DNA from: Galerina marginata
Taxonomy: Eukaryota > Basidiomycota > Agaricomycetes > Agaricales > Galerinaceae
Assembly (NCBI GenBank): GCA_023014335.1
Contig: JAECYW010000006.1
Location: forward strand, 2,294,001 to 2,358,000
DNA length: 64,000 bases
Direction of reading: 5' to 3'
Under the pieces are notes generated by a model. It saw only the letters and a list, made by a program, of their open reading frames with translations, searched no databases and was not told where the DNA came from. How positions within the stretch are numbered: position 1 is the first letter of the stretch; every line of letters starts with the position of its first letter. Below, piece after piece: positions 37,149 through 64,000 of this stretch. A program made the position numbers and the translations under genes.

Positions 37149-39831
37149 CTACTCTGACGTCACCGACTCTCGCGAAAGTGCCCAACGAGTGTAGTATAAG
37201 CCATAATCGGTTGACTCTGTCCTCGACGACGCGACTGAGTGCTCTGTTACTATGGACACTGCCTGCTCTGACTGCTGGTCGTCGTTTTGCTCCTCAGCCC
37301 GCCTTTGGCCCGTTTTTTTTCGAGAACTACCAATATGATGGTCCAGAGTTTCCTGAGGATCCAAACTTTGACTTTGTACCACTAGCTGGTCGTCCGATGT
37401 ATCTAACACCTTCAAGTTTTGAAGCTGACTTTCAACAAAGTCGAGTTGGTCCTGCTGTCGATAGTGCTCCAAGTCTGGCGGACTGTAGGCCATCACCTCC
37501 TTGACACAGTCCGTGAATTCCCAGTATCGTTGGAAATTAATCAACAACTGCCCATCTACTTCTTCCGTCCTTGGATACCGTTGGAGAATTCGGTTCAAAT
37601 CCTTCAGATGGACAGCTGAGGAACGGAGTTCAGATCTTATCCATACAGTTACTGCCACTCCTCAAGCCATGAAGGCATAAGTAAATAAGGACTGACCTAA
37701 CCAAGGGACGCAACAACGCCTCTCTGAGCTGCCCGCTTTGTTCAGAGCCTGTCGGTACCCACGATGATCGGAGAACGGATCAACAATGTCCTGCAAAGTA
37801 TTCAGTTTGCTCTGCAACCGGTGAGGTAAGGCGGAATTTATGAGCCATAGCTCAATTGGAACAGAATACAAAGCGGTGACGATGGCAGCTAATGACGAAA
37901 AATTTCGTAGCTTCAGGCACTCCTAATAGAATGTTATTGATTTTTCGAATTCGTGTACATGGTGTTGAAAGACTCACCTGGGCTGTATCGATATACAATT
38001 TGAGAGCATGTTCCACCGAATCACAACGCATCAGGTCATCTTTGACATACAGCATTATCTTGTCGTTTATCCTGAGGACAACTTCAACATTATTGCTGCG
38101 ATCACAATGTCCCCCTAGGTGTGCAATATAATCTGCTGGAACAGGAAGTTTGTAGTTATCCGCCTCAAGAAGAGTGAAAGCAACCGCCAAATCAAAGGGT
38201 TTAATCCCTGATCTCAGAAGTGGATTTCTGCTAGGAGCAAGGCCTGCACGGGACAGATTGTCTTGCTGGGCCTGCAAGTGCAGCGCGAGTGAGCATCAAG
38301 TAATTAATGTTTTAAGTAAAATGAAACAACCCTGATCTCGATCAGCTGAAGCAAGTCCCTCGCTTTATCCATCATCGTTGTAGAGGACATTATGCGAACG
38401 GCTGATTCACAGAAGTCCTTCATCTGCCCAAGTAACTCTCGGTCGACTTGTAGATACCGATGTGATAGCCAGTACTTGACGACCATGAAGATACTAGATG
38501 GCAGGTGTGTCAGAGGCACAACATGAACATTACGAATGGTATACTTGTACTGCAATGCAACACTGTCCTTAGGGTCTTTCTCTGTCTCCGCTTCATGGAA
38601 CCAGTGGGTTACGACGGCGAAGAGATCCACTGGCGTCGAGAAATCTGTACAAGTCGATAATAGCACATCTTGATACTCGATGGTACTGTGTGAGTCTGTG
38701 AGGGAGTATATTTTGAATAACAGCTGTGCTTCTCGATTGGCCAAGCACTCACTAAAGTTCGTAATAAGGTGGTAGACCAAACCCTCCAGTGTCCCAGTCG
38801 ACACTTTACCATTGATGACATTGACGATCACCGGCGTGTCAAAGGCAGTTACCTTGAAACTGGATAGATCGGTTATAGAGTTCGACACCTGTACACCAAT
38901 TCCTGAGGACGCCTTAGAATTCTTGATTTCTTGATGGAGTATCTTGACTGCCGCCTTGAAAAGCTCCTTCTCACTGGGTAGTAAAGAACGTTCTATTAAT
39001 TTCTAGACAAATTTAGTGCCATATCCCAGTCATTACAAAAATGTGCTCACTTTTTGTAGGCCATCTATCATCCTTTCTACAGCAGGCAAATCGTAGGACG
39101 ACAGCACATTCTGGATGGTTTTCACCTCGTCCATATTGTTGACGACTTTAAGCAGAAATCCTCTGATTTCGGCCTTAGTACGACATAGATTTGAGATTCT
39201 TTTGGATGTGGGTTCCGTAAAAGCCAATGCCATGTTTTGCTAAATCGGAGATTGTGTAAATTTCAAGGAATATAGAATAGTCACAACTTCGGTGCTTGAT
39301 GCTTGCCTTAAGCCTGGTCATCGCGGTTTCTATGTCTCTGTACAGCCGGTCAACCCCACCTATGTGTTTATCTTGATGCATGAAGCTCCTGATTAAATTC
39401 CAAGAAGCCCTCTCCCGAACGTTATGGTGAATTCGCACGACGATGCTGGACGATTTTTTAGGAAAGAATGCTAGCAGACAAAGCAGATAGTTACTGTTCA
39501 ATTTCTCCGGTAATCTCTCCAAAGCGAATTTCCTCCAGGCCTACCAAACTATTTGCGGAATACACCCTTACTTTTTCTAAGCGTTCATTCATGTCTTTGC
39601 ATTGTTGCTGCATGAGAAATCAGAGAATGTTGCAAGGTAGGAGCCACGCTCACTTTATGAACTTCGAGGTTCTGAATTCCCTTGTATGTCAACTCCACTG
39701 CAAGATGTCACCGTAAGATTTCTAGCGGACCTTATTGAAATAATGAGGCTCATACCCAACTTTATGCTAGCACTTATAACGCCATCTGATTCACGCTGAC
39801 CAGGCTGGGCGATAAGGTCCGGTAGGTTCAT
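37149..39831 (-). CDS. RasGEF with an MLKL-like N-terminal helical domain and a shared C-terminal tail motif
   Basis: A predicted Ras guanine-nucleotide exchange factor with an unusual front end. The first 230 or so residues are helical and match the TKL kinase at 44.9-47.4 kb: MNLPDLIAQPG, QQCKDMNERLEKVRVYS, HNVRERASWNLIRSF, GGVDRLYRDIETAMTRLK, and the linker SLLPSEKELFKA. This arrangement resembles the fungal MLKL/MCA-type four-helix domain. Next comes a RasGEF_N region (TGTLEGLVYHLITNFSE; VDLFAVVTHWFHEAE; FMVVKYWLSHRYLQV). The catalytic domain follows: KPFDLAVAFTLLEADNY, NFSSLAAIVTALYSVPIELW, CVPWLG, and LLINFQRYWEFTDCVKEV. The tail ends ASSRTESTDYGLYYTRWALS, a motif seen in two other proteins here. 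Introns are many; one (after TRLK, about 39310) seems to use a GC donor. The start at 39831 parallels the kinase start. Confidence 0.78.
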
Positions 39832-40601
39832 CGACGAGGTAAGGAGGCAATGAACTGTAGGCTGGTAAGAAGAGCGATGTTGTGATATTTTGAACGTTGT
39901 ATGAGTCCTGTGCTGCAAAATTCGCCTATATCGTCTGAGCCATGTTAAAAATCTGGCTAAGCGCCAGGGATCATCTCCATGGAGGAGGAGAAGGAGTGGT
40001 CCCCATACGGAAAATAGTGGAAACTAGTAGTATTATGTAAGCGCCTTTATTGGCTTCGAGGCTCAGAACCATCCTCTTTCATTATCTGAGGTCTTCGCAA
40101 CCCGAAAGAACAGGTAGGTCTAGATTCATCTGAATTTTTCCTCGTCCATTTCTCATGGACTAGGATATAGTAGGTGACTAGATCGCGTGCAATTGCGGTC
40201 CAGGCATCGTGAAATGTCCATTTAGATCGTTGAATTGTTGCTGGACTATAAATAAAAAAATCCAAAATTGTTGTGCTTATTACTTTATAAACTTCGACTT
40301 TCCGAATGCGCTAAAACAACTTGAAGACTTTAGAAGCACATACCAAGAAACGGGAAGAAGACCAGACATACCTGGGCGAGGGCGATAAATCCACGACCCA
40401 GCGCCTTGACGTCGAGGTTATTCGTTATGAGTACAAAAACATGAGGGAGAGGGTGGAGAACAAACCGAGGCAGCGATTCACAGTCAAGACATTCATCATC
40501 GTCGACAACCAGCCGATAAATAACGATCGTAGAGAGCCGAGACGAAGTCGGGGGAACAAACAAAGCGTGGAGGTTCGCTTAAGAGCTATACATCAAGATT
40601 G
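39832..40601. other. No recognisable gene
   Basis: Upstream side of the RasGEF gene. Overlapping short frames near 40321-40608 on both strands are unsupported. Confidence 0.5.
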
Positions 40602-41560
40602 TCAGTGACCAGGCATGAAAGGATAAGCAAAAAGGACAAACTTCCGCAGCGAGCCAACTGTCAAAATAAGCATCTGAACCAACGACCAATGAAAAAACTG
40701 TCGAAAAAAACAACGGGGAACGGAAGAAAGACGGATGTGTTCGCGTTCAGGTAGGGAAGAAGGTCGTACAATCAAAATCGGCATGCTCGTAGTGGCATTT
40801 GAGCTGGTCAACCACCAGGCAGAGGTTTTGCTGTAGTTGTAAACCGCAACTTCGATAGACTCTTTACCGAATTCGTCGCAGAGGTAGGCTCCCAGTCCGG
40901 CATAGCGACCCACTGTAAAATCAGTCGTGCTGCCGTCCTTGCCGACGATGTAAACTGGGTCGCCACTCTCGTCATAACAGTCGGGATTGGCCCGTCGTAT
41001 CAGCGCAAAGGACACGCTTGTTGCTGACGGCGAGGACCCTGGCACTAAGATCGCCATCCTTGTCCCTGCTCTTTTGGGGAAAAAAGGACACACTGCCCTG
41101 GGCATCCACCCCTCCCTCTCCCTCGTAGCAATGGGCCTTCCCAGCGCCGCTGTCAATGCGCGACGGACATGGTAGGATGGGTTAGATTTGTGGGCGACAC
41201 GCATTAGAGCCGGACCCGACAGCTTTTCCACAAAGCCCTCGTACCACTCTATAACAGCACCCTTGACTTGGTGTTCCTCGAGAATGCGGGTAATGAACGG
41301 TGAAGCATCACGGGCATTCTCCGCGCTGGTGGTGGGATGCGTGGCGATCCAAACCACGATCGGACCTAGAGTCTTCTTCCCCTCCTCCTCATCGTAGGTA
41401 GAGAAACGAGCAACATTCTGCCAGACTGGGTTGAGCGACGTCCCAAACACTCCTTCTGCGGTCTTGACAGGGAGTGCAGACCATCTGGCCCCAATCTGAA
41501 GAATCAGGAAGGAATTGGACTCGACATCGGAGCGGTACAGAAGCTCAGGAGGGTCAGGAG
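40602..41560 (-). pseudogene. Shortened member of an expanded basidiomycete family of unknown function
   Basis: The frame is open from about 41560 (PDPPELLYRSDVESN) through LNPVWQNVARFSTYDEEEG, TLGPIVVWIATHPTTSAENA, GAVIEWYEGFVEKLSGPALM and SNPSYHVRRALTAALGRPIA. Family members I recall continue into a long middle section with a peptidase-like fold. Here the text jumps from the TRERE region to late-family segments (GDPVYIVGKDGSTTDFTVGR, CDEFGKESIEVAVYNYSKTS) and then runs into unrelated sequence. I read this as an internal deletion and a lost C-terminal GDSG-type motif. Start codon is not clear. A divergent complete gene remains possible. Confidence 0.5.
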
Positions 41561-41908
41561 AGATCCCGTGATAGTAGTGAGTACTGGGACAAGCTGTGGG
41601 GCGATGACCGAAGTGATGGTAAACTGAGAGAGTGCCTCGGCATCGTTAAAGGACTTGTTGAATGGTGTTCACGCGAGCTCGTAGTTGGGGAGGAGATGAG
41701 GAATCGCAAAGAGCAACGTTATAAGCAGTCTGGCCTAAAAACAGCCGGCGCTGTCGCGTCCAGACGCGTGTCTTTGTCATGTTTATGTGATTGATTCTGT
41801 CACAGATTCTATACTCCGCCCGCCGGACATGTCGAAACAAGCGCTCACTCTCGGTTGGATCACCTCCAATTGTGCCCAGGTCTTTATACTGTTCTAATAA
41901 TTTCTGCA
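41561..41908. other. Intergenic; promoter side of the Crinkler-kinase gene
   Basis: It lies between the shortened family member (minus) and the Crinkler gene (plus). The minus frame may continue into it, but family signal stops. No element boundary is visible. Confidence 0.45.
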
Positions 41909-44032
41909 ATGCCCGGCGACGATATAAGGCTAACGTGCCTTGTTTTGCCCGATGACAAGCCAAATGATCACTTGTTCGAGGTCAAAATCAACGACGACGA
42001 GTCTGTCATGTCTCTCAAGAAAATGGTCAAAGATGAGTGTGCACATAGGCTTCATAACGTCAACGTAGGCGACCTTGTCCTCTGGAAGTGCTCAATTCCC
42101 GACGATCCCAATTTAAAAGAAACATTGAACACTATTCATTTTGATGGCACCCATCCTTCCGTTAAACGCATGCTACCTCTCACATGGCCGCTTTCCCAGC
42201 ATTTCCCGGAAATTTTACCCCGTACAACCATCCATATTCTCGTTGAAGTGCCCGCCAAGGGTGAGTAACGGTCACCTTATCGTTCTGTTTATGCTGATGG
42301 GCCTTATATTGGGTCAGATGCTCACCTAGCGCACACCGAAGCGAGCGATGTAATTGCCAACCCTGCCGAGAATACTGGTGCGTCAGACCGGTACATCGAT
42401 CTCTCCATTCATCTTTGCATTCGTCGATACAAACTGCTCCTAACCTATTGTATTGCATTCATAGCTTTCAGCAGGAAACGACACCGAGGTGAGCCAATAG
42501 GTCTTTTTAAGTCCAAACTATGAATCCTCACCTAGTATTCAGTCGATCACAGTCATGTTGTACAAAGTTGGCAGTCCAAGCGACTCAAGAAACAACTTCC
42601 TTCTATCGAAGAGCTTATCGGGGTACTCAAAGAGCCCCTACTCGACTCGGAGAAGATCCCAATCACAGAGGACATGTATACCAGTTTCATTAGCCTGCTT
42701 CCGCCCGACAAGTGTGACGAGGATACCATCGGAACTTTGTTCACCATTGGGGACTTTGACACGCAACTCATCATTTTTCTCAACGCTGTTGCTCTATCAC
42801 CGCCTGTAGGAGGTACAAAGGCTTCTTTTCATTCGTTCTGGGATGATAATATTCGTAAACCCATTGAGCACCTGATACCCACCGGGAAAACCATCCGCAA
42901 CCGGAATGACGATACGGAGACACGTAAACTGCGCCCAGATTATGCTTTCCTTCTCCAGAAAATTTGCCCATTTCGCGGTGAGGAGAAAGGGTCTTGGACT
43001 CCTGGGGATCCTAAGGCCGAACTTGCGTATAACCTTAACTGGGTCTATGAGCCTGCCCCTTATATGCTCGGTGAGCGATCTTATATTTTGGTCGCGTTTG
43101 TCATCTCAACTATTTTCGTAGGCTATTACTGCCGGGGGTCTGAGATGACCCTCGCCGCCATTACCCCACCGGATTCTCAAGGAGGCAAACCAAAAGTCCA
43201 TGACTTGATAAGCCTCGATTTGAGGTGGAGAAAGGACCGCATTGCCAATATACGCCACCTCATCAATCTCTCAGCTATTCTCCCACAGCTGACCGAGCTC
43301 GTTCGATTTCCCGTTGATGATTTCGAGCTCTTTGAAAGGTAAGCTCCTTGATTTGAATATGAGTACTTGGAATGATATGAGCTAGGCAAAATTGCACTGT
43401 TGAAATCTCGAGTACCCTCGTCATAAAGACCTACACATGCGAGAATGCTGAAGCAAAGGTTGGGCTCCTCCGACGAATTTATGAAGTGATCGCGAGATCG
43501 CGTATTCCCAATACGGATGCGCTGGTCTTTGCACACAAAAATGTCGCACACCTCAGCCCTCGTGGATTTGCTGGGCAGCCGATGGTCGAGAAAGAGCTCC
43601 GAGAATGTGTTACTTGCATTCTGGAATCACTTATTGTGCAGCACCTTTTATATTTTATCAATTGAAGCTTATCTGGTCTAGGTTGCTCATCGAGTGCCAA
43701 TATATCACCGCGATATTCGATGGAGTAATGTTATTCGCAGGATCGAAGACCACTCGAAATGGTTCCTTATCGACTGGGAAGACGCCGCCCAACCTCCTAC
43801 AACGGCCCAACCAGTCTTTTCCAGATCAAGCCATTCACCGGCCATTTTTGAGGATGGCCATGGGGCCGATGTTGATATTTGGGGTGTTGGGTATTTGATC
43901 AAAACCTGCCAGGCTGCAGATGTCTCGATGGAGTTAAGGGCGCTTGGGACTCGCCTTTGCGATGAATCTCAGAGCTTGAGTGCAGAGGCAGCTTTAATAC
44001 TTGTCAACTCCACTCAAACTTATTCCGTTTGA
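41909..44032 (+). CDS. Crinkler-type protein with a FunK1-like kinase domain
   Basis: The N-terminus is the ubiquitin-like Crinkler header: IRLTCLVLPDDKPNDHLFEV, then VMSLKKMVKDECAHRL and LVLWKCSIPDD. A middle region (RLKKQLPSIEELIGVLKEPL) leads to a FunK1/APH-like kinase: LRPDYAFLLQKICPFRGEEK, ELAYNLNWVYEPAPYMLG, and after introns YHRDIRWSNVIRR (catalytic Asp) and WFLIDWEDAAQP (DWE in place of DFG, usual in this family). About seven exons; the stop at 44032 follows SQSLSAEAALILVN. Crinkler-RHS proteins are hypervariable and thought to act in conflict or host interaction. This one lies between two genes with a matching MLKL-like front end. Kinase activity is plausible, unproven. Confidence 0.82.
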
Positions 44033-44874
44033 TATTTTGCCTCATCCTTTCACTTCGGTGATCCTGATCCCAAGCGCCTTTTGCATCGTAAAGGGTTATA
44101 CTCTTCAATGTTCAACGAACCCCAAAAATAATGTAGGCCCTGATTAACATACCCTCAATACAAGTACAATAAGTACATACGGCTGGCGAATGGCCATAAT
44201 TGAATTCCCGAGAAACCACAATTAAGTCAGGTGAACATAGACCAGGACCAATGTAAGTAACTGTAAGAGAAGGATCAAGGGTGCAAAGTCCATTCGATCC
44301 CTCCACGCTGAAGGGACAGGTAGGGTGACAATCAAGATCAAAACGTGCCATACCACACCGTACATCCAGCTAAGATTGCACCTTACATAGATTTATTGAC
44401 TTGTTTCGGTGGGGTGTAAGTTAGTAACTGAAAACAAATATTTCCGAGTCGTAGCCGGTTTTGGTTGAGGAGCGTTCGTTTCTTCCTCTCAGAAATATAG
44501 TGTACGGACATTGTTTCTGCGTGTATTATTGTATACTAGTATACGCAATCGAAGTTCAAATGTCGTTCCATGATATTCTGAGCATTGTATTGGAAGGCCG
44601 AAGCTGTGCCACCAATTGCGAATGGAGGACAGGGATGCAGGAACATCGAAGCCTGAGGGTTCCAGCGCCATCGTTGGAACCTTCATGATCAAACAATACT
44701 CTCGAGAGTCTCGACTTGCTGTTCTCTTGGAAGGACAAGTGTAGTATCCACCAGCTCTTCGAATGTGCGTGTTGCTTTCTGTCACTACATAGCAATTATT
44801 AACAGATTAACAGATTAACATAGAATCGGGGCTGGCATTGGCCATGGAGTGCCGGGAAGAAAATATGGAGGACT
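44033..44874. other. Convergent intergenic region
   Basis: It separates the Crinkler-kinase gene (plus) from the TKL kinase gene (minus), so it should hold both 3' ends. A short 'agattaac' tandem repeat occurs near 44804. Frames here are unsupported. Confidence 0.5.
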
Positions 44875-47382
44875 CTACTCCCCATCCTCTGGTATCATTG
44901 ACTCTTGGGAAATAGCTCGACGTGTGTAGTAAAGACCATAATCAGTTGACGTTGTGCGAGACGACGCAAAGGAATAGGCGGTCACTGTAGACCCGGCTTC
45001 TTCTGAACGATTAGAAGAACTTCGGGGCAGTGAGCTTGGAATCGTTGAGATGGCGCTCACATCGCCTTCTGAACCTGGGGGTGCGGTGAACAATTGCTTG
45101 TGTGACAATTTCGGCACGGTTCGACGCCTCGGAATGATTGTCAGTTTAGCAGTGGTTGGCAATTGCGGTGCAGATGATGGTTTACTGTCTTTGCGCGAGG
45201 TGAAACTGGTCCAGGTAGGGGTATCTAAACAGAAGCGAATTGGCAAACTATAAATTTACAAGAAGTTAATGTACCTCTCATTTCTAATATTGCAGCTTTG
45301 ATATCTGACATCGAGGGCCGCGATGCTGGCTCTGTTTGCCAGCACTTCTCCATCAAATCCCACATATCATCAGTCAGTCCTTGAGAAGTCTCAATGCGTC
45401 CCGGGCGCTCTGGGAGTTTGCTATTGACAAGCTCGCGGAGTACAGCGATGTCGCGTGTGATGTTCTTATACGGTAGTTCACCGCTGAGTATTTCGAGACA
45501 CACCATCCCGTAACTCCACACATCCGAGTGTGTTGATACGGATGCAGAGTGCAGTAGCTCTGGTATAATCCAACTTGGATTTTCGTTATGGGTAACTGCC
45601 TTCCCGCACTGAAGACGATCGTTAACACAACAACATGGGTTAGAAGAGGTCTTACATTTTCTAGAAACTTGGACAGGCCAAAATCGGCAAGGCGTGCGAT
45701 CCCATTCTTCGAGATCAAAACATTTGCCTTAAATGAGTGGATCAGCTAAACCAACATTCCATAAACAAATCATGATAAGGCTTACGCCTCGAAGATCGCC
45801 GTGCACAATACCTCTGGTGTGTAGATATTCAAGGCCTAGCCGACTTCCCGTTAGTGCAGTTCGCTGATGGAACGAGTTCTACTCGCCAGATGCAGCATCT
45901 GCCAGGATTTTCAAGCGATCGGCGGATGGGAATTTTTTCACGTATGCAACTGCAGTACCATAGTCCATCCAGGGGCTGACCTTTATTTTTGCGTGAGATT
46001 GGATGAAGATATATATATAAAACATCACACACAGAATACAAATCCTCGTTTATATAGGTGACACCGAACAAGGGTACGACATTAGGGTGGTCAAGTTCTC
46101 TCCAAATGGATGCCTGCCTTCGGAAATGCTGTGGGCTGTAAGGGATGATATCTGATAAAGTTTTTTGAACGTACATCCTGAAGCTCTGAATCATTTGCCA
46201 GAGTTCTTGGCAGCCGTAGAGCAACCTGGTAGGCCACAGTTTAGATACTACTTAAGTCGGGGTCCTCAAACTCACAGGTTCCTTATCCAACCATTGGCCT
46301 AAAATCTTGAGCCGCAAACGACAAGAAACTGTGACCGAACACACCAAGATATAGGTCACTGAAGGGGCCTTTTGCGATTGTGGTCTGGGAGTTCAAAGTT
46401 ACTTGGCCCGTTACTTCACATGCCACCTAATCATCTATGACTCCATGGAGGACAGAAAGGGAAGGTGCCTCACAATCTGTCAAGGGCGGAAATTTCGAGG
46501 TTTCCTCATGAAGCATCCAGAGGCCAGCTTTGAAATCCTCTTTTTCGCTTGGTTGCAAAGACGGGTCCATTAATTCCTGGAATACTTAGGCCTCTTGTCC
46601 AAATCATTATAAAAGTGGGCCTTACCATTTGGAGGCTCTCCATCACCTCTTCAACAGGCTGCGAATCAATCGAGGGTTGCATAGTCAGCAGGGCCTTCAT
46701 GCAGTCCGTACTTTTAACGATTATGTGCAAAACCTCCCTGATTTCGACCTTATCGCGTCCACGAATGGCTTCAGATTCGAGGTAACCGCGGGCCATTTCC
46801 ATATTCATTTGAATCTAATAAGCAAAGCATCAAGGGTACGGAAAGCGGAAAATAGTGCTAAGGGAGTACCCACAGTGAAGTTCATCGACGCTGCATCGAT
46901 CTCACGATGAAGTCGGTCTATACCTTCTTTGATCTCCTTCTTCTGGACAAAGCTCTTGAGCTGACTCCAACAAGACCACTCCCGGATCTTTCGATCAATG
47001 TGGTCAATAATACTGAATGGTAATGTGAGGACAGAAAGACGGCAGAATTGTTGGGACTGACACCCCGATTTCATGGGCAACCTCTATAGCTTTGGTTCCC
47101 TCCAAGCCTTTCGAACTCTCTCGGAGAGCGACCATTGACTTTACGCAACGAGCGCAGATGTCTTTGCATTGTTGCTGAGAAAGAAATGAGAGACAGATAT
47201 GGTAATAGTTAACAACCGTACAGACTTTGTAAAGCTTGACATTCTCGATGGCAATGTAGGTAGACTCCACTGGAAACGAAGGTCAGACATATCCCACCCA
47301 AGCTGCGAGTCTTCGTACGGGTTTTCACGCCGGCGCTCAGACCCGGTACACTAGACAAGGCGAGCAGGTCCAACAGGCTCAT
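44875..47382 (-). CDS. TKL-type kinase or pseudokinase with MLKL-like N-terminal domain and shared tail motif
   Basis: The start MSLLDLLALSSVPGLSAGVK (47382) opens a helical domain also present in the RasGEF at 37.1-39.8 kb: STYIAIENVKLYK, QQCKDICARCVKSMVAL, IDHIDRKIREWSCWSQLKSF, GIDRLHREIDAASMNFT, and the linker SLQPSEKEDFKA. A kinase fold of the Agaricomycete TKL type follows. LTGQVTL precedes a weak Gly loop (KGPFSDLYLG). Beta-3 reads VALRLPRTL, with Arg where the ATP-binding Lys belongs. The rest looks normal: IWRELDHPNVVPLFGV, HGDLRGANVLISKNG, LADFGLSKF, HSDVWSYGMVCLEILSGELP. The order four-helix domain then kinase recalls animal MLKL, whose kinase part is inactive. The last exon ends ASSRTTSTDYGLYYTRRAIS. 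About ten introns, some with weak donors; N-lobe borders are the least certain. Confidence 0.78.
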
Positions 47383-53623: not shown

Positions 53624-55411
53624 ATGACAATCCCTTCTTCGTCTTTGCTTGCCCTCTGGATTCTCGCTGGCCTCGCAGGGTCGTCCCTGGCACAAACGAA
53701 CAAGTTGTTCCAATGGCAATTTGCAAATGCAGTCCGTGGTTCCTATTTCTATCTTCATTCATTCCTTTGATTTTTCTCCGGAATACAGGCGCTGTCAAGT
53801 TTATTACCGACATGCACCCCACTCCAGATAGTTGTCAAATCCTTTGACCCGACAACAAATGCCACCAATGGCACTCCCCCGTACTATATGATATCGTTTG
53901 CGGTGGGTGGAACTCCAGTAACGACGTTCATTGGGACAGACGAGAACAATCTCAGCTGGACAATCACTCAACCTGTTGGTGAGTATGTTTTCGTTCTTTT
54001 CGGGCCGTCAACTCACCCAGCGACAGATTCTCAATTGATGCTCAGTGTGGTTGATGCAAACGGCAGTGCTGGTGGTATACCACCCCAGCTTTCCACTGTC
54101 ATTGGTGGGTTTATTTCTTGCGCCGTTTTCATTATGAAATCTGATGTCGGCGAACTTGAAGCTGGTCAATCAACACGTTGTGTTACGCCTCCGTCGACAC
54201 CTTCATTTACTGTCACCGCAAATGTCACGGATGAATTGACCACTTGCCAGCCGTGGGGGCTAACAGTCAAGGGTGGTGTGCCCCCATATAACGTGACGCT
54301 AGCTGCTGTCAACTCGCCTATCGTGACGAATGTCACCATGCCCTTTGGCCTCGACGTTTTCACATTCATCGACCGCGCCGACCCAAATACCCAGCTTCTT
54401 GGTGTGTGACTATCTAATTCGTCCTTCTTGACGCGTTGGCTGACCTGTTGTGATGATCTTTGATATTTTCTAATAATATCATTAGCCGCAATCAGTGACT
54501 TGTAAGAATATGTCAGAACCTTGTTATATGGTTTCGCCTTATCTTTATTAACAGCACGGGACAATGGGCCACCGGAACTCCGATTGTGAAAACTAGAGGT
54601 GTCTAGTGGTTCTCATCTGCTGGCCTTGTTAAATTTGCTCACCAAGTTTCTGTGTCGCCTAGGGCAAACCGATGTGTCATGTGTAGGACTTGTCAGTTCA
54701 TCCGGCAATTCAACGCAGATTAAGCAGCAACAAGACGCTGCCAACGCAGCTGCCCAATCTGCGAAGCGAAAACACTCAGCCGTTGTCGGTGTAGCGGTCA
54801 CTTTGGTGCTTCTGGTGGTGTTTGGATTAGCCGGCGCTGCTTTCTTTCAGCTGCGGAAACGAAAGCGAGAGGCCGAAGAAGAGCTTGCTCAGACTCGCCC
54901 AACTCAATTTGTTGAACCCGAACCACAAATGGAGCCCAACAACAGTTATCCAGAACGCCCTTCAGTGTCCGGAAAAGCAGCGTTGGCGATGAGAGAAGCC
55001 CAGAATTCGTATTCAAATGCTGTATCTGTGCTCCATCGTCCTTCGCCTTCCCAGTCCTCATCCGGACTTCTATCTTCTCAGGATAACTTGGGTAGGAGCA
55101 CAAGTGCAACAGCGTCGGGGTCCACCGATGTCCGACCGCAACGCCCAGGCAGCCAGTTGTCCATTCCTGGGTTCGCAAATTTTCCCACTACTTCAATACG
55201 CCGTTCAGCAAAGGCAACTGAGGCCAGTGGGACCACTACCCGCCCATCGGACTCGGAACATCCAGAAAGTCCTTTCAATGATCGTAGATCCCCTTTGGCG
55301 ACGAGGGTAAATGAAGGGTTGGTCTTCCAGCATCAGGATGCGGATAGGGTTCAGGAACTACCCCCTCCGTATGCTGATCGGGCTCGAAGGTCCCGCCCGT
55401 CTTCTTCATAA
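53624..55411 (+). CDS. Single-pass membrane glycoprotein of unknown function
   Basis: The first exon encodes a signal peptide (MTIPSSSLLALWILAGLAGS, then LAQT). The ectodomain has many N-glycosylation sites (NATN, NVTD, NVTL, NVTM) and two repeats of a C-x-P-x-x-L/W type start (CTPLQIVVKSFDPTT; CQPWGLTVKGGVPPYNVTL). A helix AVVGVAVTLVLLVVFGLAGA then spans the membrane, followed by KRKREAEEEL and a long Ser/Pro-rich cytosolic tail ending with PPPYADRARRSRPSS, a PPxY-like motif. The layout is common in basidiomycete surface proteins with no known ligand. About six exons; the tail is encoded in one long exon from about 54685. Confidence 0.72.
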
Positions 55412-55957
55412 TCTTTGCCTTTTGTATATGTTTTATGCTAGCTTTTTTCTTCTTTCTCTTGGTGTATTTGGTCGATCAGTCGAGTTAGGTCAGTTGTATT
55501 GTACTGGTATCTCAGATCTCAAATGTCATTTTTCCGTGTAGCACCTGAATCACTGAACTGTCGAGTGCTGGGAACTGGTTCACCTCTTACTATTACTATT
55601 ATCATACCTGTGGCAGCCAGCAGAATTGACTTGGTGGTATTTTCCGTCAACCGCGTAACCAAGACTTTGGTCAGAGTCCCATTTTGAGATGTCAAGATCA
55701 TGCAAGCCGAAAATGGGAGCACAGGGTTTTTTTTCGACTTTCCAAAGCGTCAGCGGCTGCCATTCGGTCTGGTCCTTCATTTTACAAATTAAAATATTTT
55801 GATGGAGCATTTCATTCAAATTCATTGATCTTGTTGTGTACGCCGTATAATTACAAACCTGTTCAGAACTACATTAATCGAAAACAAATAGGGTACATGG
55901 ACAACATGGAGGCAAATTTAAGAATAAGAATAGCAATAATGGAAGTGAGAAATTCGT
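55412..55957. other. Convergent intergenic region
   Basis: It holds the 3' ends of the membrane glycoprotein gene (plus) and the Rua1-type gene (minus). No supported frame. Confidence 0.55.
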
Positions 55958-58141
55958 TCAAGCAGGTTCGGGTTTTAAAGATGAAATCTTCGCTAGGATG
56001 TTATCTTCCTCGTAATAGTCGCCTTCTCCTTCTAGAGTGGTGCCGTGATGGCAAGCAGCCGCGTGTTTCCACCTGAAATACAACGGGTTCGACGTGAACA
56101 ATGCCCGAGAAATTAAATAGCTGAAAATACACACCAATGTAACTCCTTGACCTGATCCACAAATCAGCACCGATACAAGAAGATAGACAAAGAAATATTG
56201 ACCTTGCTCTCCATGTCTTTAATACCTTCGACCGCGACCCATTTCGCACATTTGTGGCATTTACCCTGCTGGATGCTAAGTTTCTCATTCTTTCCAGGAC
56301 TAGGCCTGACCAGAGTTCGGAAAGCCGTTGGTGGCGAAAAGGGTTGCCCCGTCGAAGCCGATATGCCTAAAGAATATAAGACTAAGATCTCGCCATCGAA
56401 AGACCAAATGAATCTTACCATGCGCGTATTGCATATGATAGCTAGGATATGAGTGAAGGATGTGAGCTACATGACCGGGATAAAGACAAGATAACCCTGG
56501 ACGTTTGACGATTAGATCAGAAGGAGATCAGGCAATAAAAACATACCACTTGAAAGCCGAAAACTTCATCGCAAACCAAATTTTCTTGTTTTGCCCGCCT
56601 CGGGCTTGAGGCTCGACGCAGATAGGGCACAATCCCACCTTCTCTACACCTTTACCTTTAACGAATCTAGGAGTATAGAGGTCTAGAGCACTTCGAGGGG
56701 CATTGTATATTCCACCTGGGTGGGCAACGCCAAAAAGCGTGCAAGGCGAACTTCATATGGGGAATCGAAGAGTTAGTGGGAGAAATTACAACGGCGGAAA
56801 GAAAACTCACTCAAGATGCCCAGGCTGATAATAAGAGCTCGCCGGAAAGCGTCTGTAGAACAGCGAAAAGTTGGCAGCTATTTCTAGGCTGGCCGGCAGA
56901 GTTCGGACTGTAAACGACGGCCCAAGGGAAAGGCCATCGTCGGGCGAGCTTTTCTCAGGAGAGGATTCAGCCGAAGAAAGCGGACTACTGAGAGAGACAG
57001 GTGACTCGACGGCGGTGGTTAACCGTGGTCTCTTGCTCAACCCAACAGGAGTCGAGAAGCTACCAAATTTTCTCTTCAGTTTCAGAACAATTCTTGGTGG
57101 AAGTGGAGAGTCCGCAGAGCTTGAAAGGGGCGTCAAAGGGCTTAATGGCGAAAGGATATCGGTAACCTGCGATGCAGAACCAGTGTTGACAAGTTCGGGC
57201 CCAATGGTGATCGAGCTGTTGGCGTCTTGTGAGGAGTTGTCCATGGTAACCACTTGAGAAGTATCCTGGATGGAACCAGGAGATTCATTCGATACAAAAT
57301 GGCAAGGAGATAAAAGAACAGCTGGAGGAAAGCCATTATCTTCCGTCGAGCCGGAATGCAGTCCAAGCAAGGGTTTCACAGCGGTACGACTAGAACTAGG
57401 TGTCGACGGAGGCTTGCTTGACGATGGAGTGGCACGGAGCCGTTCGACAAACGAGGAAGGTCGAGGAAGATTTCTTGTTCGCTTGTTCTTCTTTTTTCTT
57501 CTAGGTTTGATATCAGGTATTAATTCATCGTCAGGAGGAACCATTTCTTGGAGCTTGTCCCCGCGGACAACAGGCGAGATATCGGATATAGGGTCAGCCA
57601 AGAGATATGGAGCCGTTAAGTCATGGTAGTAGTTTCCGAAAGAAGTGTGATAAAGTTCTTGCATAAACTTGGTCGGAGAGAACCGAGTTTCGTTATGATC
57701 GACGATGGTCCCGGACGGCGAGAACGTAGCAAGATGGCGCGGTGATGGTGTGTTGATAACGGTTTCGCTCGTAGAGTCTAACGAGAGCATACGATGATGA
57801 TGACTGAATATTATTGGTGAAACTGAGGACGGGATGAAGTCGGTTCCAGTCCCGGAGCTTGCATTGTTCTCGATATCGAAAAAATCGGGCAGATCATAGA
57901 GATAATTCAACCCAAAACCGTCGCATTGGGGTAGATTGACCCTCGAAGATGAGGAGACATCTCTGAAAGGCGGCGAAGATGACTGAGGCTGAGAGGTTGG
58001 CTGAGTATCCGGTGAGTCCGTTGTCGGCGAGATACGAAGCCAGTCAGTAAAATCCGGAGAAGCAGAGGTTGGAGCCGGAGAGCTGGTGCATGCAGCATCA
58101 ACAGAAAGCAGCCAGGCGAGTGCAGCGTCAGTAGAAGACAT
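55958..58141 (-). CDS. Rua1-type transcription regulator
   Basis: The first exon (58141-56807) encodes 440 disordered Ser/Pro-rich residues with a basic stretch KPRRKKKNKRTRNLPRP and SPLSPLTPLSSS-type repeats, and opens with MSSTDAALAWLLSVDAACTS. Later exons encode the conserved Rua1 C-terminal domain: PYEVRLARFLALPTQVEYTM, DLYTPRFVKGKGVEKVGLCP, CPICVEPQARGGQNKKIWF, FSAFKWY-x-HMR, ISASTGQPFSPPTAFRTLVR, GKCHKCAKWVAVEGIKDM and WWKHAAACHHG. The Cys/His pairs probably bind zinc. In Ustilago, Rua1 activates glycolipid (ustilagic acid) genes; the target here is unknown and no such cluster is adjacent. Start and stop (55958) are well supported. Confidence 0.85.
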
Positions 58142-59957
58142 TAGAGGGTGAGGAAAGCAGCTTTGTCGCTATTAATATTCTTGAGACGGTATTTGTTGCT
58201 GTGTACAGGGCACGGACCATGCGGCCACTTGTACTGCTCAGACTTTAGTATAGACGACTGCAAAGACGTCCTGGATGGCAAATTCACGGGTAACCCCTCG
58301 TCCAGCGCTCCGGGAAGCTGTTGACCGCCACAAGGCAAGGGCGAGGAGGAGAGAGCGAGCGGCAGGTACGTGGCCACTCACCACCCAAACACACCCCTAA
58401 CCACCCATGCCTTCTCCCCCGCAGCAACAATTGGCACTGGTATAGTACCCGCCTCACCTCATTCACGCCCTGCCATGTGGAACGACGTTTGACGTTGGGC
58501 ACGCCGCGTCTCCCTCCCCTCGCTCCGCCACGTCGAACGACGTTTAGCGTCAAGTATGCTGCTGCCGCTCCTGCAACGGAAACCGCCCCGAAACGCCTAG
58601 AGAGGCCGATGGAAATGATGAATCGAGCCCCACCCTAAGCCCCGCCACCCGGTGCAATCTGTTCGAACGGCGAGAGCACGCGAATGCTGGAGGAAAGGCC
58701 CAACACCAACTAAAGGAAGGGAACAAGGGCTCCAGACCACCAGGTAAGTCATTCCCGCCCTCCCGTCTCCTGTACTCATCGTTGAACCAGTAAATGGGCC
58801 GCAATAGGCTGAAGAACTGCCACAGCGGTATACCTCGCCCTCAATGCCCAGACTGTATGTCTCCCTTCCCTCCCTCATTGTTACTAAAAAAGCTAACATA
58901 AAATCTTGTTTTTAGTTTTCTACTGCGAGCGCCCGTTCAAACTGAGCCGCAACGCATCCCCCACCCCCTCCCGCTGTGCCACGTAGGGCAGGCCCTGCGG
59001 CCTCAGCGACCTCAAGAGCAAAAGCTCCCCGAGCCACTAGCCTCAGCCGCAGCCTGCGTATGAGCTAGCCTAAGCCCGAGCCCAAGCCCGAGCGAGTGCA
59101 ATGCAATGACGGCAATGGCATAGGCGTGCATGAGTGCGAAAGCTGGCACTAGCGCCAGCCTGAGCGAGAGCGACACGATGACGGCATGCCCGCGGGTGGG
59201 ATACCAGTGAGTGAGAGCGATGTGATACCACCCAGCGCACCCATGACCCGCTCTGCCACATCAACTGATACATATCCACATTTGATTTTAGCCTTTTAGC
59301 CTTTCTACAGATCCACAGTGGGATCGAGTGGCGGCACGAGCACGGGCATGCCTCTTCGACCATCAGCAGCGCGCTCTGCTGCTAGTGGATTGACTGCACT
59401 TATAATTAATAAGTGAAGTAGTTAGTACTCGAGTAGTCGAGGAAATTTAATGCAAGGTTAATTTTTAACTTGAGATACTCTGAGTCTTTGGCTAGTATGG
59501 GTAAAATATAATCTAAATTTGTAATCTTGCTTGGATTTTGCCTCAGGGAAATAGTAGAATATTGAATGAATTTTTGCCCCCCCCATCAAGACTCAAAATA
59601 GTCCAGCCGCAGCAGTGTCAGGCAAGTTTTGTTTTGTACAAACGGCATTTTGCAGGGGCACAAGCACTGGAGCCCACGCATCCTTGTCCCTTGGTTTAAC
59701 AAAATCGCTGTTCTAAGATCAGGCCACCTTCACTACCACAGGAAAGGAGGGCTTACTTGTAACCAATGGTTTCAAATACAAGGTCAGTATCATCCAGGCA
59801 AGCACAATCAATACTTCCTCTGCCAAACATGTTTTCCAAAAACGCTGCAGGAAAAAAAATGTCCATAGAAAGGGGAAACCTTTCTCTTAAGATTGCGACT
59901 GGAGTAATAATATTATCACTGATGATGGATTTGTGCTTTGTTCCTATCGTAAAAAGG
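58142..59957. other. Gene-poor 1.8-kb stretch with low-complexity repeats
   Basis: 58300-58900 is GC-rich with an imperfect inverted motif ('ggaacgacgtttgacgtt' near 58478 and 'cgaacgacgtttagcgt' near 58535). 59060-59180 has a run of 'agcccgagccc'-type short repeats. 59390-59600 is AT-rich. No coding frame is supported. Confidence 0.5.
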
Positions 59958-62154
59958 TTAGCTCATTGAAATGTCATATGCAGTAATTGATAAGTACCGG
60001 TAGGCCATCGAATCTGTTTTGCCAATCTTCCAAATTTGTCCACTTGGACCAATCGCAGTTCTGCTCGAAGACGGCCGCATGCCATGATAATAACCAGGTA
60101 CATTGAGCCTTAACGGATACAGCTTCATGAGAATTAAATAGCTGTGACAGTAAGACACAAACCAGCAGCTGCCAACTGACAGCATTTCTGACCATCCTCA
60201 AAAAATCGGCCCAATGTTTTGTAAGAAACTTTCTTTTGCAGGGCAGGGTCGTCAGCCAATTCACGGAAAAGCGGAGTTTTTTTTTTTTTGGTGCTCCTGA
60301 GTTCACTAGTTTCCAGCGATATTAAATGATCAATTAAGGTAGGAGTGAACGCTCTTACCATTGCACTTCACATGCAAACTGCATGACATTAATGTAGTAC
60401 GAAAGCTGAGCAATGGCTTCTGTTACTTCTGAATTGTTGCAAAGTTTTGCAAGACGAACAAGGCATTCCATGGAAGGGCCTTTTCTCAATCCAGAGGCGC
60501 CTGAACCTGAAGGAGTGCTGGGCGGTTGGATTGATATCCATGAGGCAGACGGTGCCTTGTTCTCTGCAAGGGAGAGGAGAGTTTCAAGGACTTTGAATGG
60601 GTTTGAAGATAAGTTGGAGGATGCAGAAGATGAGGATGCCAGGCGAATATCTTCTCCTATGGTTGTAAGGGCTGCAAGGAAAAGGCGCGCATTCAAACCC
60701 AAGGCTTGATCTTCTGGTATTGGATGGCTGCTGGCTCCAGAATACATAGGGTTCTGTTGGCCCAAAGCTTGGCTTTCGCCATTCTCTTCTTCAGATTCCT
60801 CTTCTTCACTCAGTCCTTCTCCATCTTCTTCATCGGAATTGGCTGCAGGACCAAGCCCTTCAGGACCAAATCTTCTTTGTTGCAGGCGTTTGGCTCGATC
60901 CTGCTTGGCTCGCAGAGCGGCGGCAGCTGCCTTTTTAGCTCCTCGAGGACAGTCTTTCCTGCCAGCAACATTTCCACCGCCACCACCACCGCCTCCGTTG
61001 CCGCCACTGCTGCCGGCATTTATCTGTCTCTGTTGCCTTTCTCGCCTTCCTTTGGTGGACTTGGCCTCTCCTTTTCCACCCCGTCCACTACTCCCCACCC
61101 CCTTACGGCTACTCTTTCCGCCTTGCCCATCATTCTGGTTGTGTGCAGCTCTTCTGTTACTGGTAACAGCAGCTTCAACCCCGTTCGCCGATGTGCCTGC
61201 GCTTTGGATTTTTGATGATTGAATTTGCTGAGCAGTTGTTTCTAGCCTGTTAACGGGGTCCATTCCATCAACGTCCATATCCACACCTGCATTCTGAAAA
61301 TCGGCCTGTTTGAGCATACCCACTGGGCTTAGGCCAGTACCTTCTGTTTGTGGCAACAAAGGCAGCGTCAAGAAAGGAGTCATACAGACATTTGGGTTCA
61401 GACAGGAGTTATTGATATTTTGCTGTGAGAGGCTGCAGGGTGGATTTATGAAGCTAGATTTCTGCGACACATCAAGGTCTCCAGTGAAGAAGCTTTCATC
61501 GGGTACATGCAAAAGGTCGCCTAAGCAGGTTTCGATCCAGGGTGTTTCAGGCAGGTTCCCTTGGCTCTCCTGGAGCGACTGCCAACTGTAGAGTAAATTT
61601 CCAGAGCTGAACAGTGTCATATCTCCTGGGTAAAGGGTTTGAAAACAACTCAATGTGTCAGTTGCTGTTTCTGAGTCTGTTGCTGTTTCTGAGTCTGGAG
61701 GCGGGGACCGCGGGGTAGGGTTGATGCTTGCAAGATTAGAGCCAGCCATTTCTTGCCCAGGTTTCTCCCTCTCTGAAGCTGTAGGCTGCTGCTGGCCATG
61801 GTAAGGGCCACCAGAATCCAGGGGAGGTGGCCATGCAAAAGGATCGTTAGCCCCATGCACAGAGCCGGGAGCATGGCCTTGACTCGTTGAAAGGGAAGTC
61901 TGCCAACAGGTTGGTTAGAGGAATGAACACTATACACAGCCAAAAGACAGCTTTACCTGCAGAGATGGAACCGACAGAAGATACTCTGGGGGTTCTGAGC
62001 TGGAGGCCAGCAAGCAGCTTAACTTTGAGGGTAGGGTGCAAAGTATTTCTGGAAGCTGGTTCGAACTGGCTTCTAAAAATGCCAGCAATGATCGGCACTC
62101 AGAGGGCAAGAGGGTGATGGTGTTGGGAGATGTTGCACCTTGAAAAGGGCCCAT
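59958..62154 (-). pseudogene. Front part of a large repetitive-family protein; 3' part missing
   Basis: The start MGPFQGATSPNTITLLPSEC (62154) joins across an intron (about 61962-61906) to a long exon that continues to 60355: PFAWPPPLDSGG, a disordered region, a poly-Gly run, a basic block (KKAAAAALRAKQDRAKRLQQ) and an acidic block (EEDGEGLSEEEESEEE). It then becomes ordered: FLAALTTIGEDIRLASSSS, SMECLVRLAKLCNNSEVTEA, IAQLSYYINVMQFACEVQW. Further exons add KVSYKTLGRFFEDGQKCCQL and WTNLEDWQNRFDGLP, then coding sequence stops in AT-rich DNA. Large, multicopy Agaricomycete proteins with this kind of middle region exist and, from memory, some carry TET/JBP oxygenase ends linked to KDZ transposons. 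That assignment is uncertain. With no conserved end visible, I treat this copy as truncated. Confidence 0.5.
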
Positions 62155-62860
62155 AAGAGTCCACCTGGAACAACACTAGCAGTCGCAAGTCGCTACACAG
62201 CAGCCGCCAGAGGAATGCACAGACTTAACCGGATCAGCGGGGCAATCTCCGGGACAAGGACAAGAACGCCTGCCTTTGTCCCGGATATTTGCGGCATTTG
62301 CAGCTTGCAAATTCTTGAGCCAAAGGCGATATTCTAAGGAGTTGGCGCTGCTCTCGTTCCATACATCTTCGAGCCCACTCTTCTGAGATGGCATGTTTGT
62401 CGCGCGTCTGTTCACAGAGTGTATCCTGTAGTCACCGTGCCATGCGAGACAACGACAAAAATTGTGTGGGTATGTGGCCAATGATCTCCTCGCTGTCGTT
62501 GTCAAACTGTATGAATTTGTCCGTTCATTCATGAGGGTCCAGTGGAATAGTCAGGAAAGCATTTGCTACTGAATCCAATGGCACAAGCATGTGCCCAATG
62601 AAGTTGGAGGGTCCAATGAGAATATCGCCTTGCCCCACTTGGATCGTACGGGTGCGTGAGGTCGAACAACCGTGGGTCCGTGGCTGGTTTTTAGACTCCG
62701 ACGTACGTTCTTGCAAGAGCCAGGTTGGAGCCAGGTTGGATGGATAGATGGATGGACCAGGAGTCTAGGAAGAAAATAAAAGATCAGTAGTACGAGCAGG
62801 GTATTACTTGGATGTTAGTCGAATAATATTGAGACGTTGCCTCGTGTTAGGTACTACCTA
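62155..62860. other. No recognisable gene
   Basis: A 118-codon Cys-containing frame (62176-62532, minus) has no recognised family. The rest is the 3' side of the CNH gene. Confidence 0.5.
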
Positions 62861-64000
62861 CTACTCGTACTCTCGTATAGATGATTCTACAGACATCCTG
62901 GATATGTGAAATACACCATATTCCGTGGAAACTGTGCGAGAGGAAGCCGCAGATACAACAGTAGAGTATGATCTTCGAGGCAGTGGTGAAGAGCTCGGCG
63001 TTTGTGCTTGCACAAGCATACCCACTACCTGGGTCATGCCAGTGTGCAAGTCATGATTATTTGGAGCCTCGTCCATCATCACGAAATAAATTGGTTTCGT
63101 GTCTGGGCTTTGGTCGTTTGATCCATCGGTATGCGGATGTAGCTCTCGGCCGTCAGAAATACAACGTGCATAGAACCCTCGAACAACCTGCTCAAGTACA
63201 CCTGATTGGAGGTGTCGGATCTCAATAAAGAAATCGTTGAAAAGCAAAAAATAGGGCCAGCACATTGCAGCACTCCTTGCGCTCCATTCCCACTTGATAG
63301 GTTCTCCTGATCCACATGGATCCCCGTGCATGTTAAAAAAGAGGCCGAATTCTGGGGAATTGTTGTCAGCTCGCGAAATTGTGGATGACTGGACATCCAG
63401 CACCTTCATAACATAAAAGGAATTCGTCAACTCCTGAACGAAACATTCCTAATGCTCTTGAGGGTTTCCAGTTTTTTTGCTGGTGGAGGTAGGCGAAGTT
63501 TTCTGGTGGAGGAAATGGGGCCGGCTTCGAATCACTTAGTCGTAAAGATCAGCACTTATAGAGGTTATACAGTAACAGAGGTCTGGCACATACTCGTGAA
63601 CCCTGATGGAAAGAAAGTGTCCATCACAGGTGAGGAGAATGTCCCATGGGCTGAGGAAAGCGATGTCGTGATATTCAGCAATAGGGAGGAGGAAATCCCG
63701 AAATTGTTTGAACCAGTCCGTCCGGGGCGATAGGAAGCTCAACCGAGAGCTAATGACACCGGGAACGTTGGAACTTTCGTCGAGTGGAGCTTGCTTTACT
63801 TCAAGCAAACGCAGTACACAGTCAGTCTGTCGAAGTTAAACAGATTCGAGTGGTATGGCATTGAATTCATTCGGAAGGTTACTTACTGGTCTCTTGTATA
63901 TAAGAGCAATGACGGTACGATGGTCACAGGTGCCAACCTGAAAGCATATGATGTTTTTGGCCTTGCTAACAATTCTGGGACTCTCTCGCGACAACTGAGT
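62861..64000 (-). CDS. CNH-domain protein (C-terminal part), with the shared tail motif
   Basis: The gene enters from the right edge, so its N-terminus is unseen. The visible part is a CNH (citron homology) domain of the kind found after RhoGEF-PH in fungal Rom1/Rom2. Landmarks are KNIICFQVGTCDHRTVIALI, LFRD-type text SPRTDWFKQFRDFLLPIAEY, DILLTCDGHFLSIRV, FGLFFNMHGDPCGSGEPIKW, YFLLFNDFFIEIRHLQSG and LEQVVRGFYARC. Several introns break it. After the domain comes a Ser-rich linker and the end AASSRTVSTEYGVFHISR with VESSIREYE. This tail matches the RasGEF and TKL kinase tails in this window. A Rho exchange or scaffold role is expected but depends on the unseen front part. Confidence 0.78.

Follow-up and report, generated by a model that had tools for sequence, protein, structure and literature searches.

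A conserved C-terminal tail shared by proteins of many architectures in Galerina marginata and related mushrooms

Why should a RasGEF, a TKL kinase and a CNH protein, all encoded within a single 64-kb stretch of the Galerina marginata genome (the window), end alike? A sequence-only reading of this DNA had proposed that the three proteins, with unrelated catalytic or scaffold domains, share a C-terminal tail. The tails do lie where that reading put them, on the minus strand, in frame and each followed by a stop (Table 1), and the domain names it gave hold, with a weak RasGEF_N match in the RasGEF gene. Two of its descriptions need amending. The CNH protein does possess a CNH domain but, judged by its annotated relative P0009, is a RhoGEF-CNH protein; and whilst the catalytic and scaffold domains differ as proposed, the RasGEF and TKL genes have an N-terminal stretch in common.

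Table 1. Features of the three tail-bearing genes in the window
Feature	Position	Strand	Remarks
RasGEF gene, last open frame	37149..37661	-	tail at its end; 170 aa + stop
RasGEF tail	37149..37256	-	16-residue core 37185-37232, begins 37232; 11 codons, then stop
RasGEF catalytic domain (exon matches)	37527..38012	-	E 5.2e-13; E 2.5e-12 for 37662-37922
RasGEF gene, weak RasGEF_N match	38304..39002	-	E 0.0021, below cut-off; 84% identity to P0008
RasGEF gene, open frames with most of the N-terminal stretch common to RasGEF and TKL	39033..39540 (limits approximate)	-	
TKL kinase gene, last open frame	44875..45255	-	tail at its end; 126 aa + stop
TKL kinase tail	44875..44991	-	16-residue core 44920-44967, begins 44967; 14 codons, then stop
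TKL-type kinase domain, C-lobe	45225..45728	-	best match PK_Tyr_Ser-Thr, E 4e-19
Open frames upstream of TKL kinase with the N-terminal stretch shared with RasGEF	46506..47282 (limits approximate, splice sites unverified)	-	
RhoGEF-CNH gene, last open frame	62861..63448	-	end of CNH domain (63158-63352, CNH E 3.2e-9) and tail
RhoGEF-CNH tail	62861..62965	-	16-residue core 62900-62947, begins 62947; 12 codons, then stop

In the RasGEF gene the last open frame is 87.7% identical to residues 570-724 of the annotated G. marginata RasGEF P0008; in the RhoGEF-CNH gene, whose tail is the most divergent of the three, it is 93% identical to residues 1119-1279 of P0009. Because both of these relatives (724 and 1279 aa, respectively) end in the same tail, the last exons of the two genes have not been mis-assigned. 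The TKL exon lacks this support: there is no TKL orthologue among the 18 public carriers described below.

The N-terminal stretches of the RasGEF and TKL genes are 30% identical (pairwise E 5e-16, the TKL side having been joined by eye from window frames). Pfam and PDB sequence searches gave no name for this stretch, the PDB search returning no MLKL match; it is perhaps reminiscent of the HeLo/MLKL_NTD-like domains of Agaricomycetes. The name of P0013 begins 'Fungal N-terminal', which our own Pfam scan did not confirm.

How widespread is the tail? The TKL tail alone, used as a query, finds 33 places in the host genome at E < 1e-3, and pooling this search with two others gives 39 different matches; reading 38 of them yielded 35 clear tails. 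Since a stop comes soon after the core (9-43 codons) at 34 of the 35, these are C-terminal; L025, the one ambiguous case, continues into a kinase-like frame. Two additional tails, L089 and L090, are degraded. Among public proteins, 18 annotated entries from the genera Galerina, Gymnopilus and Psilocybe have the tail near the C-terminus, all of them matched by a profile of 34 genome tails with E <= 4.6e-6 (for 5.77e9 sequences), among them a Gymnopilus dilepis SH3 protein (4.2e-11) and a Psilocybe cyanescens polo-box kinase (2.9e-10). The known range of the tail so far is one mushroom suborder, the Agaricineae, with at least three named genera. Chance similarity was rejected on the E-values of the genome and public-protein searches. 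A short DNA pattern gave 679 matches against 724 for its reversed control, so no enrichment, and a protein search with the three-tail alignment gave no match, full-length proteins falling outside the range of its length filter.

The carriers supported by Pfam have 11 architectures. Eight are found in the host genome (BTB at 14 places, RasGEF, CNH, two kinds of kinase, Kelch, PH_10 and ubiquitin hydrolase) and three are added by the public proteins (SH3, FYVE and polo-box kinase). With this many architectures carrying the tail, recent duplication of one gene is rejected as its source. The proposal of a shared C-terminal module has thus survived both checks set for it: the tail is not confined to duplicates of one gene, and annotated relatives bear out the last exons of the RasGEF and CNH genes. 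The original observation is correct and larger in extent than first noted. Only one of the 10 RasGEF places in the host genome lies near a tail. The domain exons of the TKL, Kelch, PH_10 and UCH carriers are tied to their tails by order and strand, not by an annotated relative. L010 is labelled PH solely because its G. marginata relative bears that name (the Pfam scan gave no family) and L012 SH3-like from its similarity to L017, whilst for L011 the sole PH match (E 0.21) is below threshold and lies in an upstream frame possibly belonging to another gene. No domain was found for L026, L030, L032, L037, L086/L087 and L088, several of which had 0.4-1.5 kb to inspect.

To gauge conservation we aligned 32 of the 35 tails, omitting L086, L087 and L088. 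Seven positions of the 26-residue aligned stretch are invariant and their codons vary, all six Arg codons being used, for example, at one Arg. The majority core reads Y-S-x-A-S-S-R-T-x-S-T-D-Y-G-L-Y-Y-T-R-[RW]-A-[IL]-S. Amongst pairs of labelled carriers of different architecture (four carriers without a label were left out), pN is below pS in 272 of 272, with medians of 0.18 and 0.77: synonymous sites are near saturation and the protein is conserved. In view of these fixed positions, varying codons and uniformly low pN, the tail is a selected, portable module.

At 12 of the 35 places another tail is found less than 30 kb away (5000 random draws, with the genome treated as one line, gave a mean of 1.06 and at most 8), so local duplication occurs. 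This, along with the two degraded tails, is what might be expected of a functionless neutral by-product, spread either through recombination or in the form of a recent 3'-end copy. Such a by-product is hard to reconcile with near-saturated synonymous sites in a conserved protein, or with the retention of the tail in a related species by RasGEF, CNH, FYVE and one kinase; the explanation is barely credible, and neutral spread was rejected as contradicted by the codon pattern.

Clues to the origin of the tail come from longer homology with BTB tails, seen in five of the 17 other genome carriers (18.9-47.7 bits, the best of 4800 scored shuffles reaching 12.9) and consistent with fusion from BTB genes. 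Such upstream homology is absent in 12 of the 17, including the three window genes, and in all eight public non-BTB carriers tested. The tail was perhaps a feature of the BTB family first, and single members of other families may then have acquired it by 3'-end gene fusions. The tail tree, with 12 starred branches among its 42 inner ones, has too little resolution to settle either the BTB origin or the number of transfers.

The core is rich in tyrosine (12%), arginine (9%) and serine plus threonine (32%), with 19% ILVFM and a GRAVY of -0.39. Among 896 residues there are one Lys and two Pro, where the composition of the bodies of the 18 public carriers would predict approximately 35 and 52; the comparison is descriptive only since the tails are related. 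AlphaFold, given a 10-sequence alignment, returned tail block means of 25-33 pLDDT, predicting a tail without a fold of its own; the helix drawn over residues 574-609 in the same model is not to be trusted at that confidence, and a model of P0008 from its single sequence (mean pLDDT 38) was unusable. The sequence-only reading knew of no description of the motif, and our literature searches turned up none; nor does any Pfam family match the tails of the three window genes at E <= 10. PDB profile searches likewise gave no match of note. Precomputed annotation lists PF26017 for the BTB carrier P0007, location not given, which our own scan of P0007 lacks; the other 17 proteins have no such listing.

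What might such a module do? Our preferred explanation, to which we give a little short of an even chance, is that it is a docking tag, likely bringing many unrelated proteins onto one shared putative partner. This partner protein would read the core, and the consensus suggests that binding could be switched by phosphate on the invariant R-T-x-[S/T] and on a second site, R-x-x-x-S. The tail resembles 14-3-3 and PDZ peptide ligands in being terminal and predicted to be disordered, in its basic-directed phospho-acceptor consensus and in its many unrelated carriers. It differs from them in being longer, with seven invariant positions, in its common descent and in being found so far in one suborder. 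PDZ ligands are conserved in their last four residues, whereas here another 9-43 codons, variable ones, separate the core from the stop at 34 of the 35 places; since its last residues vary, the tail is no PDZ-type terminus. Counting against a docking tag of any kind, invariance over some 16 residues exceeds what most docking peptides need, and low predicted confidence is equally expected of a self-assembling segment.

14-3-3 sites take the form R-x-x-[pS/pT], with Pro preferred at +2, and are often tandem. The tail might do no more than offer one kinase two phosphorylation sites, to be read by 14-3-3 or a similar protein, the rest providing spacing: all 32 tails have R-T-x-[S/T]-T (the acceptor changing from S to T in three) and 30 have R-x3-[S/T], and farther on 13 have R-x(1,2)-S with W, F, Y, H or C as the next residue. 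However, Pro at +2 is absent from these nearly proline-free tails, and phospho-peptide readers leave the conserved T-D-Y-G-L-Y-Y-T between the sites unexplained. We regard this explanation as highly improbable.

RasGEF, RhoGEF-CNH, PH_10, Kelch, FYVE and SH3 proteins are kinds tied to polarity and membranes, and their presence amongst the carriers would suit a localisation signal directing polarity and signalling proteins to one site, the hyphal tip, septum or a membrane patch, its reader being a lipid or scaffold. It is less easily squared with BTB proteins, a polo-box kinase and a ubiquitin hydrolase, which have no obvious common site, or with a core that is nearly without lysine and in which inspection by eye revealed neither an amphipathic nor a lipidation signal. 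A localisation signal also overlaps with the docking explanation; as a separate account we judge it distinctly unlikely.

A further proposal was that the tails bind one another, as a homotypic or amyloid-type motif gathering its carriers into a signalosome or condensate at high local concentration. This needs one motif on many proteins, as the tail shows; the Y/R/S/T-rich core with almost no Lys or Pro speaks for it, as does the combination of N-terminal domain and tail in the RasGEF and TKL proteins. There are also precedents. Passages of two accounts (PMC5485727; PMC9815663) describe amyloid motifs of fungi as C-terminal tags common to several proteins, and the HRAM, PP/RHIM-like and sigma motifs, like the tail, are short modules of different proteins in one genome, C-terminal on the effector side and outside the folded domain. 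The same motif at the C-terminus of two or more different proteins marks the HRAM/PP class, and the tail has this property if its carriers are assumed to be effectors. HeLo/MLKL_NTD-like domains are frequent in Agaricomycetes, according to PMC9815663.

Other features set the tail apart from these systems. By eye, its consensus is without the sequence signs that passages of these accounts give for the HRAM/PP class (GxQxG, terminal G[DN] and a hydrophobic triplet); ILVFM residues make up just 19% of the core and GRAVY is negative; and its carriers are BTB proteins, GEFs, kinases and others, several of them (the GEFs and kinases) not of known cell-death executor kinds. Nor was an NLR-side copy found. 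The search on that side covered NACHT exons; no scored one lies within 42 kb of any tail, the nearest of the 87 scored (from 228 candidates) being 42.8 kb away. Copies beside NACHT genes were rejected on this result, and it follows that an amyloid relay from an N-terminal NLR copy is not supported, 34 of the 35 tails being C-terminal. PMC9815663 places the Agaricomycete NLR05/08/22/29/44 amyloid-like motifs at NLR N-termini; these and BaMLKL occur, as the tail does, in the same class of fungi and in dozens of copies per strain, but the tail sits at the C-termini of non-NLR proteins. Its 35 places in one genome are on the would-be effector side, the reverse of the ratio shown by basidiomycetes in the same account. 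Homotypic assembly is unlikely, in our estimation, though it is an explanation to be taken seriously.

The docking tag can be carried a step further, to a proposal that we make tentatively and rate clearly below an even chance: that a universal plug evolved within the Agaricineae, a C-terminal module fused to GEFs, kinases, BTB adaptors, a Kelch protein and a ubiquitin hydrolase, with some 34 loci wired into one assembly with one socket, an undescribed signalling hub. If the tail is such a common plug, the list of its carriers is a parts list of one signalling assembly in mushrooms, which would join Ras and Rho activators, kinases and BTB-type proteins. The tail would then be a natural case of a portable docking module spreading across many gene families of one lineage.

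The RasGEF, the TKL kinase and the CNH protein of the window had been read as ending in one C-terminal motif, and all three tails lie where the sequence-only reading had placed them: they read in frame on the minus strand and run straight into stop codons (see the table). No Pfam model matched any of the three at E ≤ 10. The RasGEF and CNH frames are 84–93% identical to G. marginata proteins, which places the host close to that species, and both relatives are listed on contigs of equal length, which suggests, short of proof, that they share synteny with the window. The interval from the RasGEF to the TKL gene contains, on the opposite strand to both, open frames that resemble putative fungal FunK1-type kinases.

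The genome containing the window comprises 69.3 Mb in 43 contigs. With the TKL tail (42 residues) as query it yielded 35 places, of which 33 reach E < 1e-3; a longer second query gave 38 and the CNH tail 10, making 39 different places in all, and a Psilocybe tail used later gave 34 places, none of them new. Inspection of 38 of these (a weak match, L078, E 4.5, was left out) gave 35 clear tails, two degraded ones (L089 and L090) and one chance-like match (L091), extending a tail first seen on three proteins more than tenfold. One clear tail, L088, has its core reduced to the second half. A stop codon follows 9–43 codons after the tail at 34 of the 35 clear places (counted by eye for L088); at L025 the frame instead continues into a kinase-like stretch, the order being BTB exon, tail and 213 further in-frame codons that match a kinase weakly (E 5e-4). 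Either two genes have fused here or the boundary between them has been missed. Two of the 35 tails, on contigs C7 and C14, belong to a single copied segment, which brings the number of loci to about 34. The sole pair of NACHT places on these two contigs has an offset about 14 kb off that of the tail gene. On contigs C17 and C27 five NACHT places recur with offsets equal within about 25 bases, and the assembly therefore appears to include some regions from both haplotypes. Tails are clustered: 12 of the 35 places have another tail within 30 kb, where 5000 random draws gave 1.06 on average and never more than 8. Some of this clustering comes from tandem BTB duplication; the cluster in the window brings different architectures together.

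Tail carriers and associated features (L, tail places or segments; C, contigs of the host genome)
Feature	Place	Strand	Core	Codons, core to stop	Evidence
RasGEF carrier	window, core start 37232	minus	ASSRTESTDYGLYYTR	11	Pfam RasGEF, E 2.5e-12
TKL kinase carrier	window, core start 44967	minus	ASSRTTSTDYGLYYTR	14	Pfam PK_Tyr_Ser-Thr type, E 4e-19
CNH carrier	window, core start 62947	minus	ASSRTVSTEYGVFHIS	12	Pfam CNH, E 3.2e-9
Another kinase carrier	L033/L082				Pfam
PH_10 carrier	L028				Pfam
Kelch carrier	L029/L081				Pfam
Ubiquitin hydrolase end	L065				28.4 bits, cut-off 23.9 (sequence pieces joined manually)
Shared N-terminal stretch, TKL	window 46506-47282
Shared N-terminal stretch, RasGEF	window 39033-39540
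Open frames between RasGEF and TKL genes	window 42536-44032	plus
BTB exon, tail and run-on	L025:1216-2220 (C7:1511566)	plus
Receptor-like exons	L027 with L085 (C2:2368000-2371800)	plus			by eye

The commonest partner is a BTB domain, found within 2.5 kb of 14 of the 35 tails; L023 counts as a fifteenth by similarity, since it nearly duplicates L022, one of the BTB loci. Eight architectures have Pfam support in this genome, and public carriers (BTB, RasGEF, RhoGEF-CNH, kinase, FYVE, SH3 and kinase-polo-box) add FYVE, SH3 and kinase-polo-box to give 11; a further SH3-like carrier, L017/L080, falls under the Pfam cut-off (E 0.014). The join of domain and tail was checked in one gene, L019, where a 53-base phase-0 intron separates the BTB exon from the tail exon. 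Annotated public relatives with the tail are known for BTB, RasGEF, CNH, FYVE and one kinase, while for the TKL, Kelch, PH_10 and UCH carriers the link between domain and tail is one of order and strand. Of ten RasGEF places genome-wide, just one has a tail beside it. At L027 with L085, exons heading towards the tail resemble by eye part of a seven-helix receptor, a Pfam scan of the two segments gave no match above the cut-off, and an in-frame stop codon separates the core from the upstream patch; the locus is perhaps a relic. The L011/L079 frame resembles G. marginata P0013, by eye, in the tail and for a short way upstream of it; the two pair in the tail tree and their N-terminal parts differ.

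Searches of 5.77 billion public proteins with tail regions gave first six carriers among 250 candidates, all from Galerina marginata, and then 17 among 972, of which 14 were from that species and one each from Gymnopilus dilepis, Psilocybe cyanescens and Gymnopilus junonius. By phmmer alone these last three matches are not significant (E 0.066, 0.46 and 8.9); with a profile built from 34 genome tails they reach 4.2e-11, 2.9e-10 and 6.8e-8 at a database size of 5.77 billion, and all 18 different public proteins match at E ≤ 4.6e-6, with the core starting no more than about 52 residues from the C-terminus. Psilocybe is classed in Agrocybaceae and the other two genera in Galerinaceae, all in the suborder Agaricineae, and occurrence may be wider, as the search depends on shared five-residue words and a restricted length range. 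A precomputed database entry lists PF26017, with no position, for the BTB carrier P0007 and for none of the other 17; when we scanned P0007 against Pfam, this family was absent from the results.

Codon alignment of 32 of the 35 tails (omitting L086 and L087, which have one residue inserted, and L088, where half the tail is missing) shows seven invariant positions out of 26 (S, A, R, T, T, Y, G), at which the codons vary, all six being in use at one Arg. In 272 pairs of tails from different architectures (some labels provisional, including L010, L011, L012, L027 and L035; four unlabelled carriers omitted) the median pS is 0.77 and the median pN 0.18, with pN below pS in every pair; the pairs are non-independent, yet the trend is clear. 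The tail is a selected, portable, C-terminal module shared across many architectures, which supports the shared module proposed in the sequence-only reading.

BTB tails have in common a second patch upstream of the core. A profile of this patch from 15 BTB tails, core excluded, scored 18.9–47.7 bits in five of the 17 non-BTB carriers of the genome (L011, L012, L017, L029 and L037), against a maximum of 12.9 bits over 4800 scored shuffles; the other 12, the window RasGEF, TKL and CNH genes among them, and all eight public non-BTB carriers fell under that maximum, and the L027 segment was too short for scoring. The module is therefore of common descent and was perhaps once longer, the window genes retaining its core. 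A tree of 45 tails (32 from the genome and 13 of the 18 public ones) is poorly resolved. It places the BTB tails in several groups, with nine changes against a shuffled mean of 15 (2 of 500 shuffles as low), and a single BTB-tail origin is possible, being compatible with the well-supported branches. Two-species pairs are supported for RasGEF, CNH, FYVE and one kinase; a PH pair sits in an unresolved fork.

In an AlphaFold model from a 10-sequence alignment of BTB carriers, pLDDT is moderate in parts of the body, under 50 over residues 507–610 and 25–33 in the tail, so that a helix over 574–609 has little meaning; the tail is predicted to have no fold of its own. Its 28-residue stretch, 896 residues over 32 tails, contains just 1 Lys and 2 Pro, where the composition of the 18 public proteins outside the tail would predict about 35 and 52; it is 12% Tyr and 32% Ser plus Thr. 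Two carriers also share an N-terminal stretch: the RasGEF relative P0008 and the window TKL kinase (joined by eye) are 30% identical over 160 columns (E 5e-16). This stretch is perhaps akin to the MLKL-like N-termini of basidiomycetes, an identity that neither Pfam (TKL side) nor a PDB sequence search confirmed.

The literature searched, to which most subscription journals do not belong, contains no description of the tail or of any C-terminal motif common to different proteins of these genera, nor the exact core string STDYGLYYTR, and within that literature the tail is apparently undescribed. For fungal amyloid motifs we drew on PMC9815663, PMC5485727 and PMC12261475. These motifs are shared C-terminal tags with a copy on the NLR side too, copies in basidiomycetes reportedly being commoner there than on the effector side (PMC9815663). 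The Galerina tail shows the reverse ratio and, by eye, lacks their described sequence signs. Of 228 NACHT candidates in the host genome 87 were scored, which sets a minimum of 87 NACHT exons; contig C34 carries ten of these at 0.58–0.68 Mb. None of the 87 scored exons lies within 42.8 kb of a tail, which lends no support to the suggested amyloid relay with NLRs. Homotypic assembly of the tails themselves is a serious rival to docking. We prefer docking because the invariant core positions are scattered and mostly polar, because the core is weakly hydrophobic (GRAVY –0.39) and because no NLR-side copy was found among the NACHT exons searched. R-T-x-[S/T]-T occurs in all 32 tails and R-x3-[S/T] in 30, a consensus that suggests a possible phosphorylation switch at these sites, and a docking tail of this kind would be recognised by one reader common to all its carriers.
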